Shown here: positions 5,163 through 23,141 of the stretch, piece after piece
How the letters are laid out: each line of letters starts with the position of its first letter
Position numbering within the stretch: position 1 is the first letter of the stretch
Virus record (IMG/VR): IMGVR_UViG_3300025435_000078
Location: 1 to 26,109 of that record
DNA length: 26,109 nt
Strand: one strand, 5' to 3'
Origin: a virus
Made by a program: the position numbers and the translations under genes
The notes under the pieces: model-generated
Told to the model about the DNA's origin: nothing
Seen by the model: the letters and a program-made list of their open reading frames with translations, nothing else
Database searches by the model: none

Positions 5163-5723
5163 CTATAAAAGTGCTGATTTGTTTTTGGTTTTTGCTATAG
5201 ATATTTTTAATTTTGTTTCATCAGAAAGCGTTACCCCTTTTCTTGGGCTAACTCTTCCTTTTAAAGCAATTTTCATATTATTTATATGCTCAACCGACAA
5301 TTTTTTACCTTTTTTACCAGCAGATATAGCAGCTTTGGCTGATTCTGTTCTTGGAACTCCTTTTAATGGGCTTGGGCGACCTTTTTGCGCTTCACTCATT
5401 CTTTTTCGGACTTCTTCAGACCTTTTCAAACCAAGTACCGAGCCAGCTACAGGAGCAGAATTGAAAATTGGTTGAATTAATAACATCCAATAATTTTCAC
5501 GTTCTATTCTTACAGCTTCATCGCTTATATCACATTCTTCTAATACAACAAATTCAAACGCTTCTTCACCGTAAAAATTAAAAGCATTTGCTAAATGTTT
5601 AGCAGGATGCGTACCGTTTTTGATACGTTGGCGATGTTCTTTCCATCTGCGTTCAATATTAACTGAACTACCAATATAACTACGGCCTGTTTCTATTTGC
5701 CTTATAAGGTATATACCTTGCAT
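5163..5723 (-). CDS. GIY-YIG homing endonuclease with NUMOD3 repeats
   Basis: A 186-residue protein. The catalytic domain is at residues 1-95: GIYLI (3-7), YIGSS (15-19), the ERRWKEH helix with the expected arginine, a glutamate in RIERENYW and IFNSAP with the expected asparagine. The C-terminal half carries repeated basic DNA-binding modules with the pattern SEEVRKRMSEAQKGR, SVEHINNMKIALKGR and SDETKLKISIAKT, typical of NUMOD3. It is a free-standing mobile gene between scaffold (4 nt gap) and coat (15 nt gap). Such enzymes nick or cut an allele lacking the insertion so that the gene spreads. I see no intron ends beside it. It resembles the endonuclease at 22551-23141 through most of its catalytic domain. 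Confidence 0.92.
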   Translation of the reverse strand: MQGIYLIRQIETGRSYIGSSVNIERRWKEHRQRIKNGTHPAKHLANAFNFYGEEAFEFVVLEECDISDEAVRIERENYWMLLIQPIFNSAPVAGSVLGLKRSEEVRKRMSEAQKGRPSPLKGVPRTESAKAAISAGKKGKKLSVEHINNMKIALKGRVSPRKGVTLSDETKLKISIAKTKNKSALL

Positions 5724-10833: not shown

Positions 10834-11033
10834 GATGCGTTCCTTCTATCTGGGTCTAAGTTATCTTCAATAAATTCTGCTATGTCGTACAAACTATCTA
10901 CTACTATTAATTCGTTTTCAATAAAAGATGTTAGTTCTATATATCCTTCGGTGTCAACTGTAGCAATAACAAGTGTCTGAATACTATCAGTTTCGTCATC
11001 TTCCACAGTCATGTGAAGTCTAATAAATTGCAT
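10824..11033 (-). CDS. Small acidic hypothetical protein
   Basis: A 69-residue acidic protein (many Asp/Glu, for example [12 protein letters not shown] and [10 protein letters not shown]). The ATG overlaps the stop of the endonuclease gene by 1 nt (TAATG) and has only a weak AAAGAAAAG purine stretch before it, so it may be translated by reinitiation after the endonuclease. The end overlaps the next gene by 10 nt. I do not recognise the family. Confidence 0.6.
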
Positions 11034-11581
11034 TATTTAGCAAATCTTTTCTTTTGAGCCATACTCATTTTAAGTCTTGTTTCTTCTGAAAATACACGGC
11101 CTTTCATTTTCTCTCTTATATACTTTTTGTGTTCTTCAGTATGACTCTTGCCTGCAAAAGTAGCTATTCCTGTTGGTATTCCTTTTCTGCGCTTATTCGC
11201 TTCAGCAACAGCCTTTCTAGTTTTCTCAGGAATTATGCAGTTTTTAGCATATTGATTACCAATCATAAATTGTGAGTGCTTTTTTTTATTTTCTTCTGAT
11301 ACTGGATGACTATGACCAGAAGAACCTTCGCCACCATTAGTAAGATTAACTAAATTGATACCACGTTTACGATAAGTATCTATAAGTTCCATTTCAATTA
11401 ATAAAGCAAATTCTTCATCTAAATTGTTTTTAATAATTTCAGCAATAAAACCATGTTTATTAACTGTGTTTTTCCAATACTTATTTCTTCCTTGCAATCC
11501 AGTTAATCGTTTGCCCTTACCTTTTCCAACATAAAATATTTCATTGCTATCAGCTTTTCTATGTTGATAAACGTAATACAT
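11033..11581 (-). CDS. GIY-YIG homing endonuclease, second subtype
   Basis: A 182-residue protein. The catalytic domain at residues 1-90 has YYVYQHR in place of GIY, and FYVGKGKGKR (16-25) for the YIG part, the variant in which Lys-Gly-Lys-Gly-Lys-Arg follows; a glutamate in LIEMELIDTYRK and an Asn in LVNLTNGGEG follow. The C-terminal half has NUMOD3-like repeats (SEENKKKHSQFMIG, PEKTRKAVAEANKRRKG, TEEHKKYIREKMKGR, SEETRLKMSMAQKKR). Both ends join neighbours with TAATG overlaps (GroES-like gene upstream, 69-residue gene downstream). It belongs to a different branch from the endonucleases at 5163 and 22551. Confidence 0.9.
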   Translation of the reverse strand: MYYVYQHRKADSNEIFYVGKGKGKRLTGLQGRNKYWKNTVNKHGFIAEIIKNNLDEEFALLIEMELIDTYRKRGINLVNLTNGGEGSSGHSHPVSEENKKKHSQFMIGNQYAKNCIIPEKTRKAVAEANKRRKGIPTGIATFAGKSHTEEHKKYIREKMKGRVFSEETRLKMSMAQKKRFAK

Positions 11582-19746: not shown

Positions 19747-20217
19747 ATGAGTGAAATTTATAAAAGATATTATGAAACAGATTTATTAAGAGAAAAAATT
19801 ATTAACATACTTAAAGAACAGCCAATGTCTGTGCCTGGAGTATGTAAATTATTAAGTTTAGACAATATCAAAATGAATTGGATATTTAGTCGCTTATCTG
19901 AAAGCGGTTACATTCTTAAACTTAGAGAGAAAAAAGTTTGTCCAGTAATGAATAAAAAGTATTTCATTATGCAAGCAACTGACCTTAAGTTTGTACCAAA
20001 GTCTATTGATGAAATTGTTGATTTGTTATCGTTTCGGTCTGCTAATGCTGCAAAAATTAGAGAAGAACGAAAAGGCAATAAGTCAGAAGTAGTTAATCAT
20101 CCTAATGGCAGAGTCATTCGTTTGTTAGATAGACGGCATGGTTGGCAAAATCCAGTAAAGAAACATAAAACTGTAGTGGCAATTGGTTCATCATTTACAT
20201 TAATGGATTATGCGTAA
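19747..20217 (+). CDS. Hypothetical protein with winged-helix-like head
   Basis: A 156-residue basic protein. Residues 15-70 (LREKIINILKEQPMSVPGVC, KLLSLDNIKMNWIFSRLSES, then GYILKLREKK) have the layout of a winged helix: helix, Pro turn, helix, recognition helix, wing. A helical region follows (DEIVDLLSFRSANAAKIREE) and a basic tail with RVIRLLDRRHGW. GGAG is 7 nt before the ATG. It could be a regulator acting at the nearby 16-bp palindrome; that is inference. No catalytic motif is visible. Confidence 0.65.
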   Translation: MSEIYKRYYETDLLREKIINILKEQPMSVPGVCKLLSLDNIKMNWIFSRLSESGYILKLREKKVCPVMNKKYFIMQATDLKFVPKSIDEIVDLLSFRSANAAKIREERKGNKSEVVNHPNGRVIRLLDRRHGWQNPVKKHKTVVAIGSSFTLMDYA

Positions 20218-20224
20218 ATTATTA

Positions 20225-20233
20225 TGTTATAAT
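20225..20233 (+). promoter_or_regulatory. Extended -10 promoter candidate
   Basis: TGTTATAAT combines the extended TG motif with a perfect TATAAT (20228-20233). There is no clear -35 at the right distance, as is usual for extended -10 promoters. Transcription would start near 20240, at the base of the predicted RNA structure at 20238-20294 and ahead of the HNH gene. Confidence 0.55.
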
Positions 20234-20237
20234 TATT

Positions 20238-20294
20238 TGTCGGTTGCGGGAGCGCAGGTAAGTATCTTTTGCTTGTACCATTAGATAGCCGACA
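20238..20294 (+). ncRNA. Predicted three-way-junction RNA
   Basis: Closing stem TGTCGG (20238-20243) with CCGACA (20289-20294), perfect 6 bp. Inside is hairpin 1, TGCG-GGAG-CGCA (20245-20256), and hairpin 2, GGTAAG (20257-20262) with CTT-gt-ACC (20272-20279), 6 pairs with a 2-nt bulge. A 9-nt single strand ATTAGATAG completes the junction. It follows an extended -10 promoter and lies in the otherwise empty 20218-20326 gap, with local G+C higher than around it. It does not fit a tRNA (no T-loop or anticodon stem). It could be a small RNA or a leader element of the HNH gene. Seen by eye only. Confidence 0.35.
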
Positions 20295-20326
20295 CACTCA
20301 CTCACTATCGTACAAGGATGCTCAAA

Positions 20327-20806
20327 ATGATTACGCAAAAAGAATTAAAATCACAATTACATTATGACCAAAAAACTGGTATTTTTATTTGGAAATCAAA
20401 TAATAAAATAGCTGGCTACACTAAAGAAAATGGTTATAAATTTATAAGATTAAATTATAAATTGTATAGAAGTCATCATCTTGCTTGGCTTTATGTTAAT
20501 AATGAATTTCCAAAAGATGAAATAGACCATATTGATGGAAATCCAAGTAATAATTCAATTAATAATTTAAGATTAAGCAATTCATCACAAAATAAATGGA
20601 ATACTAGAAAAAGAAAAGATAATACTTCTGGAGTAAAAGGATTGCATTGGTACAAGGCTTATAATAAATGGCAAGTTTATATAAATGCCAATAAAAAAAG
20701 AATTAGTCTTGGTTATTTCAATGATTTTTTTGAAGCGTGTTGTGCAATATATTCTGAAAGAAATAAATTACATGGGGAGTTTAAAAATTATGGCAACGTC
20801 TTATAA
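20327..20806 (+). CDS. HNH homing endonuclease with AP2-type DNA-binding domain
   Basis: A 159-residue protein. HNH_3-type core: HHLAWLYVNNEFPKDEIDHI, DGNPSNNSINNLR; the His-Asp-Gly-Asn-Pro and Asn-Asn-Leu-Arg signatures are complete. The C-terminal AP2-like domain is GVKGLHWYKAYNKWQVYI, SLGYFNDFFEACCAIYSE. AAGGA has 8 nt to the ATG at 20327; an ATG three codons earlier overlaps it. The end overlaps the next gene by 17 nt, as expected for an inserted mobile gene. It is very AT-rich (many AAA, AAT, ATT codons) compared with neighbouring genes, a sign of recent transfer. It is free-standing. Confidence 0.92.
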   Translation: MITQKELKSQLHYDQKTGIFIWKSNNKIAGYTKENGYKFIRLNYKLYRSHHLAWLYVNNEFPKDEIDHIDGNPSNNSINNLRLSNSSQNKWNTRKRKDNTSGVKGLHWYKAYNKWQVYINANKKRISLGYFNDFFEACCAIYSERNKLHGEFKNYGNVL

Positions 20807-21116: not shown

Positions 21117-21141
21117 AAGAGGCTTCGGCCTCTTCTTTTTT
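21117..21141 (+). terminator. Strong intrinsic terminator of the rightward operon
   Basis: AAGAGGC-TTCG-GCCTCTT is a 7-bp stem with a stable TTCG tetraloop, followed by CTTTTTT. It ends the rightward operon 42 nt after its last stop and directly faces the convergent leftward gene, whose stop is at 21144. Confidence 0.92.
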
Positions 21142-22110: not shown

Positions 22111-22554
22111 TTATGATAAAAATAATAGTGCTTCTGCTTTACGTCTGTTATCTAATTGCGGAATAACTTTGCCACCAGCTTTGTTATATCTAAGTAGATT
22201 TCTAACAACGCCTGCTTTATCTCTACGATTAATCGCTTGCCTGACGGAACTCCGCTGAAATGTTCCAAGACCGAGATTAAAGCAATAATCAATAATAGCG
22301 TCAAACTGATTTTGGCTGAGTTCAACATCAACGTATCTTGCCAATCCAAGTTCAAATTTTCTGACATCTGCAACCAATAAGTCATTGACCTCTCCTAAAG
22401 TAAATGTGCGATTCCAGCTATCAGGTAAAACAGTACCATCGCCAATGAGATGCCCAACACCCACGGTATACAGACCAACACAATCACGATAAGGTTTAAG
22501 CCTAACGCCTTCATACGCTTTAATTAGCTCTAGACCGCGTTGAGATGTTTTCAT
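22111..22554 (-). CDS. Lysozyme (endolysin), glycoside hydrolase 24
   Basis: A 147-residue T4-type lysozyme. The catalytic triad fits: Glu15 (AYEG), Asp24 (YRDCVG) and Thr30 (YTVGVGH), with the usual spacing. RSSVRQAINRR, VVRNLLRYNKAGGKVIPQLD and RRKAEALLF follow the family. It cleaves peptidoglycan to release progeny. There is no signal peptide, so it needs the holin at 23141-23623. The start at 22554 overlaps the endonuclease stop as ATGA and has no Shine-Dalgarno, so translation should depend on the endonuclease being translated; a TTG four codons upstream has no ribosome site either. Confidence 0.92.
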   Translation of the reverse strand: MKTSQRGLELIKAYEGVRLKPYRDCVGLYTVGVGHLIGDGTVLPDSWNRTFTLGEVNDLLVADVRKFELGLARYVDVELSQNQFDAIIDYCFNLGLGTFQRSSVRQAINRRDKAGVVRNLLRYNKAGGKVIPQLDNRRKAEALLFLS

Positions 22555-23141
22555 TTGTTTTTGCAATTATCAAAATGATACCTTTTCATATTTGCACCAG
22601 CACCAATTAATTTACAATGGGGACAAGTAACGCTTTTGCGCTTTCCCTTCATAGCTTGTTTTCTTTTTTCAGTATCTTCTTTATTAGACCATCTTGCTTT
22701 AGACACCAAAGATTTTAATTCTTTTGTTTTATCGCTGTTTTTAGTACCTAACATTTTTCCATATCTGCGTTTACGTTCTTCATCTGATACGTTTTGCATT
22801 ACAGATTTCATGTGCCAATTATCTTTTTTAGCTGGATTTAATTCACCAGACGCAGCACCAATAGCTTTATTTTTAGTATTAAATAATTTGTCTTTAAAAA
22901 ACAAATCAATATATAACTGCTCTACTTGTCTAGCTTTTTGCAAATCTTTAGTTTCAATAAATTCTTTAAATTCAAATTCATTTTCACCGTACAAATTCCA
23001 AGCTCTTTGCAAATGGTCACAATGATGTGAATTTCTTTTAAGTTCACGTTTATGTGTTGCAATTCTATCCTTTATGCTTACAGAACTGCCAACATAAAAT
23101 TTATTGCTTGGTTTATGTATTATTGCGTAAACGCCAATCAT
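22551..23141 (-). CDS. GIY-YIG homing endonuclease with zinc-finger tail
   Basis: A 196-residue protein. The catalytic domain (1-95): GVYAI (3-7), YVGSS (16-20), the helix with IKDRIATHKREL, and YGENEFEF. It matches the 5163-5723 endonuclease through this domain. A basic middle (KKDNWHMKSVM, DEERKRRYGKML, KARWSNKEDTEKRKQAMKGK) follows, then a zinc-finger-like end: CPHCKLIGAGANMKRYHFDN with a last Cys, a module I know from phage homing endonucleases. It starts with TAATG overlap on the holin gene, without a Shine-Dalgarno, and ends with ATGA overlap on lysozyme, so it sits inside the lysis cassette. Confidence 0.92.
   Translation of the reverse strand: MIGVYAIIHKPSNKFYVGSSVSIKDRIATHKRELKRNSHHCDHLQRAWNLYGENEFEFKEFIETKDLQKARQVEQLYIDLFFKDKLFNTKNKAIGAASGELNPAKKDNWHMKSVMQNVSDEERKRRYGKMLGTKNSDKTKELKSLVSKARWSNKEDTEKRKQAMKGKRKSVTCPHCKLIGAGANMKRYHFDNCKNK

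Follow-up and report, generated by a model that had tools for sequence, protein, structure and literature searches.

A conserved leader RNA predicted to pair with the ribosome-binding site accompanies mobile nuclease genes in phages

Introduction

What does the short gap in front of a phage endonuclease gene hold, and does it act on that gene? The question arises from a virus record in IMG/VR, 26,109 bases long, the whole of which is called here the window. Its terminase is closest to those of the uncultured 'Manatee Spring' phages, its nearest relatives, which carry P22-like coat and portal genes. In the window, the gap (20218-20326) is flanked by a 156-aa gene (19747-20217) and an HNH gene. 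An earlier note, made from the letters of this DNA, had placed there an extended -10 promoter followed by an RNA folding into a three-way junction, which could be a small RNA, a leader controlling the endonuclease or a relic of its insertion.

There is a known precedent for RNA control of such genes. In phages T4 and Aeh1, RNA structures sequester the ribosome site of the homing endonucleases I-TevI, I-TevII, I-TevIII, segB and mobE, and these hairpins are found on transcripts from upstream promoters, being bypassed by an internal late promoter (PMC2988022).

Results

The HNH_3 endonuclease gene occupies positions 20327 to 20806 on the plus strand, and its product matches Pfam PF13392 (E=2.7e-12) and PHROG 99, HNH endonuclease (E=2e-62). 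We consider ATG 20327 (MITQKELK...) its most likely start, since the N-terminus of the family fits and the codon lies 8 nt from the Shine-Dalgarno (SD) sequence AAGGA (20314-20318). Automatic gene calling would instead choose ATG 20318, a codon overlapping the SD. With a terminator-like site at 21117-21134, the predicted mRNA is about 0.9 kb long.

A first pattern built from the core of the structure recovered two phage contigs, and a search with the HNH protein led to L006, which has the same leader before an HNH protein 50% identical to that of the window. With wider patterns and a covariance model, R1, the set grew to 46 copies, of which 30 are distinct in sequence, carried by 44 phage contigs of IMG/VR, the window included; the initial finds leaned on the conserved bases of P1, the GGAG loop and the linker, so the diversity of the family is under-sampled in this set. 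One contig (L087) has three leader copies in front of three different HNH genes. Family copies score from 42.8 to 95.1 bits with R1, while chance pattern matches stay below 26 bits. Some contigs are near-duplicates, and for this reason the statistics below were obtained on distinct sequences (29). The collecting patterns specified neither P3, nor the pseudoknot, nor the downstream gene.

All copies share a three-way junction. In the window, P1 is formed by TGTCGG (20238-20243) and CCGACA (20289-20294), and in the alignment of 29 distinct sequences it appears as TGTCGG/CCGACA, TGTTGG/CCAACA, CGCTGG/CCAGCA and other variants, with 98.3% of the cells paired. The P2 hairpin, TGCG-GGAG-CGCA (20245-20256), keeps its GGAG loop on a variable stem that shows two-sided changes at all four pairs and 99.1% pairing. 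P3 (20263-20287) consists of TATCTTTTG (20263-20271), the loop CTTGTAC (20272-20278) and CATTAGATA (20279-20287). Two-sided changes are observed at each of its nine pairs across the 29 distinct sequences, and the window copy pairs at 7 of the 9 positions; P3 is imperfect in some copies, which have an internal loop, and 77.8% of its cells are paired. Considering the three stems together, compensatory changes occur in 15 of 19 pairs, with every stem represented, and 88.7% of the cells are paired against 75.1% in shuffled alignments, counts that come from an alignment fitted to the model structure and therefore favour it. The stem covariation score is 0.422 (0.170 when shuffled), none of 500 shuffles reached the observed value on any of five measures, and sliding the 3' partners by 1 to 3 columns lowers the score to 0.03-0.10.

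Thus, the closing stem and the GGAG hairpin of the earlier note are present as drawn and vary in a compensatory way among relatives, but its third stem was mis-drawn and the pseudoknot described below was overlooked. The bulged hairpin that it had proposed within 20257-20279 (GGTAAG..CTTGTACC) depends on a GGTA/TACC pairing kept in only 8 of the 29 distinct relatives. The note had also held that homologues keeping the bases while losing the pairing would speak against a structured RNA; what we observe is the opposite, with bases that vary and pairing that is kept. As it had stated, this is not a tRNA (no tRNA or tmRNA match was obtained with ARAGORN). Folding of the window copy alone is marginal (z = -1.9, with 12 of 200 shuffles folding equally well), and its minimum-energy fold, which is misleading, adopts a competing pairing that is not conserved and that engages the bases of the note's third stem.

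The P3 loop has a second partner. In the window, CTTGTAC is complementary to GTACAAG (20310-20316), which overlaps the SD AAGGA, and throughout the family the P3 loop complements 6 to 7 nt overlapping the SD of a gene that, in nearly every copy, starts about 72-90 nt after P1. Of the 17 distinct P3 loops that a script extracted, 16 fully complement their own leader, and the remaining one (L094), mis-parsed by the script, does so on inspection (CTTATCC/GGATAAG). Permuting the leaders gives on average 2.0 complementary loops, with a maximum of 9 in 20000 permutations. The column-wise covariation score of the pseudoknot is 0.499 against 0.204 after shuffling (0/500 as high), the share of paired cells agrees with it, and the mean duplex energy of the loops is -7.1 kcal/mol with their own leaders and -2.6 kcal/mol with those of others.

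This pairing bears on what kind of element the gap holds. A stand-alone small RNA, one of the options of the earlier note, or a site acting at the DNA level, such as a recombination end or a mimic of a homing target, would make the likeness to a leader incidental. In favour of this, the end of the cassette lies near the element, but the P3 loop always covaries with the SD of the next gene, the stems show compensatory changes and the same element is common to different nuclease families, so that we regard both forms as very improbable. The data favour instead the note's option of a leader controlling the endonuclease, since the structure pairs with the ribosome-binding site of the following gene and covaries with it family-wide. 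Repression through this pairing may be partial, as the SD is only partly paired (AAG of AAGGA in the window).

The extended -10 element of the earlier note, TGTTATAAT, is found where it had been placed (20225-20233, plus strand) and is the predicted promoter of the cassette. In each of the 29 distinct copies, P1 is preceded at 4 to 8 nt by a -10-like hexamer with at least 4 of 6 matches, and matches at 5 or more positions occur in 86% of them against 15% of shuffled flanks. Several relatives also have a TTGACT -35. A simple promoter scan of the window omitted the leader promoter, whose -35 is poor there, and listed none inside the structure. With the -10 fixed in place upstream of P1, transcription should start in the first bases of P1, about 20239-20240 in the window, in line with the note's prediction of a start at the base of the structure.

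The position of the promoter also bears on a timing mechanism like that of T4, in which read-through transcripts fold the inhibitory structure and an internal promoter yields a short mRNA that escapes it. Expression of I-TevI, segB and Aeh1 mobE is known to be delayed to late infection in this way (PMC2988022). Here, however, the promoter is upstream of the whole structure in 29 of 29 distinct copies, so the gene's own mRNA carries the inhibitory fold, and by inspection the L064 cassette appears to be antisense to its neighbours, where little read-through would be expected. We therefore find this mechanism improbable for the leader.

The leader and the nuclease gene move together. In L004, the upstream gene is 98% identical to that of the window and the flanking genes are present, with neither leader nor HNH gene between them; the absence of both in a nearly identical phage shows that they form one cassette. 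Other cassette-free counterparts are L074 (compared with L006), L071 (with L064) and L062 (with L068). Between unrelated loci, the homology starts at the -10 or at P1 and continues into the nuclease gene. Having an HNH domain (PF13392) and allelic sites devoid of the gene in close relatives, this is, as judged by genome comparison, a mobile homing-type endonuclease cassette, with homing itself putative. The suggestion that the RNA is a relic of the insertion was wrong as worded, since the RNA is conserved and travels with the nuclease. At its 3' end (20790-20806), the HNH gene of the window runs into the next gene (ATGGCAACG...), which indicates that the insertion kept a start codon and the SD-like GGGGAG for the downstream 61-aa gene. 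The window also contains three more probable homing-type nucleases (5163-5723, 11033-11581 and 22551-23141, the last on the minus strand), two of them clear GIY-YIG (PF01541) and one with a weak GIY-YIG/NUMOD3 match; each begins at or beside the end of the upstream gene, leaving no room for a leader.

The downstream genes, identified by HMM where tested and otherwise by a shared MITQ/MLTQ..LK N-terminus, are mostly HNH_3 nucleases. The others encode HNH proteins of PF01844 (L069, L073 and L092), an endonuclease VII/HNH-like protein (L080), a serine recombinase of PF00239 (L077), a ParB-like protein of PHROG 2159 (L056) and a 113-aa protein with no family assigned (L085). In two pairs of loci (L064/L071 and L057/L066) the leaders are 100% identical over 67 nt although the HNH proteins that follow share only 44-46% identity, so either the leader is swapped between genes or it is far more constrained than they are. 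At most HNH relatives R1 finds nothing, including the closest one (L005, 53% identical), which indicates that the RNA does not follow the descent of the HNH proteins.

In L094 (816-1200), a diverged leader copy stands before an HNH_3 gene in which the first reading frame stops after 23 codons; leader and pseudoknot persist there, and the nuclease seems to be decaying. L223 (4101-4182, minus strand) has a pseudoknot with one mismatch (CCCTTTT with AAATGGG) and is perhaps a decaying copy too. Two further HNH leaders, L022 (1716-1812) and L224 (2370-2560, minus strand), resemble diverged forms, with P1 as GCAGC/GCTGC, a G.AAG junction and CACTTCC past P1; in L022, the loop TTGTCA complements TGACAA at the SD.

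As to its distribution and novelty, the leader has no match in Rfam 15, neither at gathering score in the window nor at E values up to 5 in the leader, and its members L080 and L064 gave only chance-level matches, with no riboswitch or HEARO. Neither blastn of the leader, run on cultured phages and on plasmids, nor R1, run on 797 whole genomes from the order and phylum of the Pandoraea genome G001, found a family member. The tool used with R1 did detect the RNA in every one of 14 phage records that carry it, although the filters applied in the large runs were stricter. A pattern scan of bacterial and archaeal genomes gave, among the matches listed, only chance ones (below 26 bits with the covariance model), the best listed (L213) falling inside a coding frame. 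We found no description of the leader in the open-licence papers searched, and on present comparisons it is an RNA family of its own.

Around 20 unpaired bases are conserved while the helices covary. The GGAG loop of P2 was recovered in 36 of 37 loci by a pattern that did not require it, L223 being the only copy devoid of it. The J2/3 junction GGTAAG (20257-20262; G-Y-A-A-G in the family) is unpaired in the family structure, and the single-stranded linker CACTCACTCA (20295-20304) is nearly invariant in the alignment; among the exceptions, some copies have TACTCA, L001 has CTCATTCA and L056 has lost 2 nt. Since these unpaired parts are kept while the stems and pseudoknot vary, we suggest that they form a binding or folding domain, which probably determines for how long the ribosome site is kept shut. 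A switch by pairing of J2/3 with the P3 loop was considered and set aside, as the long complementarity is present in only a subset of relatives.

Discussion

The comparisons support a leader with its own promoter whose SD-hiding pseudoknot limits translation of the nuclease, and we hold this to be very likely. Transcription from a sigma-70 promoter within the cassette would begin at the first bases of P1, and the nascent RNA would fold into the junction of P1, P2 and P3. The P3 loop would then reach about 30 nt downstream and pair with the 7 nt overlapping the SD, and the resulting pseudoknot would hide the ribosome site and hold nuclease translation low.

Whether such a leader would respond to a signal depends on how its conserved bases are read. 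A passive leader would sense nothing, giving a constant low translation and protection of the mRNA 5' end: a start within P1 would block 5'-end-dependent decay, and the pseudoknot would damp initiation. We give this reading somewhat less than an even chance. It agrees with the predicted start, which in every copy falls at the base of P1, and with the fact that damping a DNA-cutting enzyme requires no signal, and ligand gating is not part of the description of the T4 hairpins (PMC2988022); on the other hand, a GGAG loop and a CACTCACTCA linker that are invariant across divergent phages are not obviously needed for it.

These same bases point to a binding or tertiary core, for which a sensing function is possible. 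A riboswitch-like sensor would be a stronger form of the preferred explanation, in which a metabolite, or a protein of the host or the phage, binds to the core and thereby locks or opens the pseudoknot, the nuclease being made only in a certain state of the infection. This remains tentative. An aptamer with an SD-hiding pseudoknot is a common riboswitch layout, and the leader has the corresponding traits: its core is conserved and aptamer-like, and the structure of its expression platform covaries. The same core stands before unrelated genes, which makes the gene product an unlikely binder. Nevertheless, there is no match to Rfam riboswitches even at loose thresholds, the downstream genes suggest no metabolite, and tertiary folding alone could account for the conserved bases. 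P2, with GGA in its loop, resembles a CsrA-type target; CsrA consensus sites usually carry two loop bases before GGA, and these are missing in the P2 loop. Most copies have an AGGA-type SD in addition to the GGAG loop, while L001 and L067 have no GGA at the SD.

How does the leader compare with known systems? Like the T4 and Aeh1 hairpins, it precedes a phage homing-type endonuclease gene and pairs the ribosome site within the leader. It differs from them in that its own predicted promoter precedes the whole structure, with no promoter listed inside the structure in the window, and in that it combines a three-way junction with a pseudoknot in one family with a conserved core, shared by unrelated nucleases of many phages. 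With riboswitches that sequester the SD in a pseudoknot, as a general class, it has in common a compact conserved core and a loop whose pairing partner is the SD downstream, but it has no Rfam 15 match or known ligand and accompanies mobile nuclease genes rather than metabolic ones. Like HEARO and the OMEGA RNA of IscB-IsrB, it is a structured RNA beside an HNH gene in mobile DNA; however, it is only about 85 nt long, lacks an Rfam match, is followed by HNH_3 rather than IscB and pairs with the ribosome site of its own mRNA.

A similarly shaped leader stands before HNH and other nuclease genes of the Salmonella phages INT55, Segz_1 and ST46, the Klebsiella phages YX3973 and VLCpiS13e and the Escherichia phages Bas80 and swi2 (L229, OP745620, 889-981; also L232-L241). 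It likewise has a three-way junction, a -10 box just upstream in the inspected cases and several nuclease families downstream. Its P1 covaries (ATGCAGCA/TGCTGCAT, ATGCGGCA/TGCCGCAT, TGGCA/TGCCA) and its last hairpin loop complements ACCGA adjoining the SD, but this short pseudoknot (UUGGU/ACCGA beside GG) shows hardly any variation. R1 does not detect this leader, which has no Rfam match at gathering score. It is similar in shape and unrelated in sequence, and is only a lead towards a sister family of the window RNA.

RNA control of phage homing endonucleases has so far been known mainly from a few individual hairpins in T4-like phages. What is new here is a conserved RNA family with a pseudoknot backed by covariation, which several families of nucleases and recombinases have in common and which moves together with them, and it offers a compact test case of how selfish DNA curbs its own toxicity. 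An RNA of 85 nt with a conserved unpaired core makes the question of sensing directly testable, and the similar leader in cultured phages of E. coli, Salmonella and Klebsiella opens the idea to laboratory hosts. It is conceivable, though we would rate it as doubtful, that the family is a widespread orphan riboswitch-like RNA of selfish phage nucleases and recombinases, a shared module opening the ribosome site according to the state of the infection or the host. If so, unrelated mobile nucleases would be timed by one common RNA sensor.
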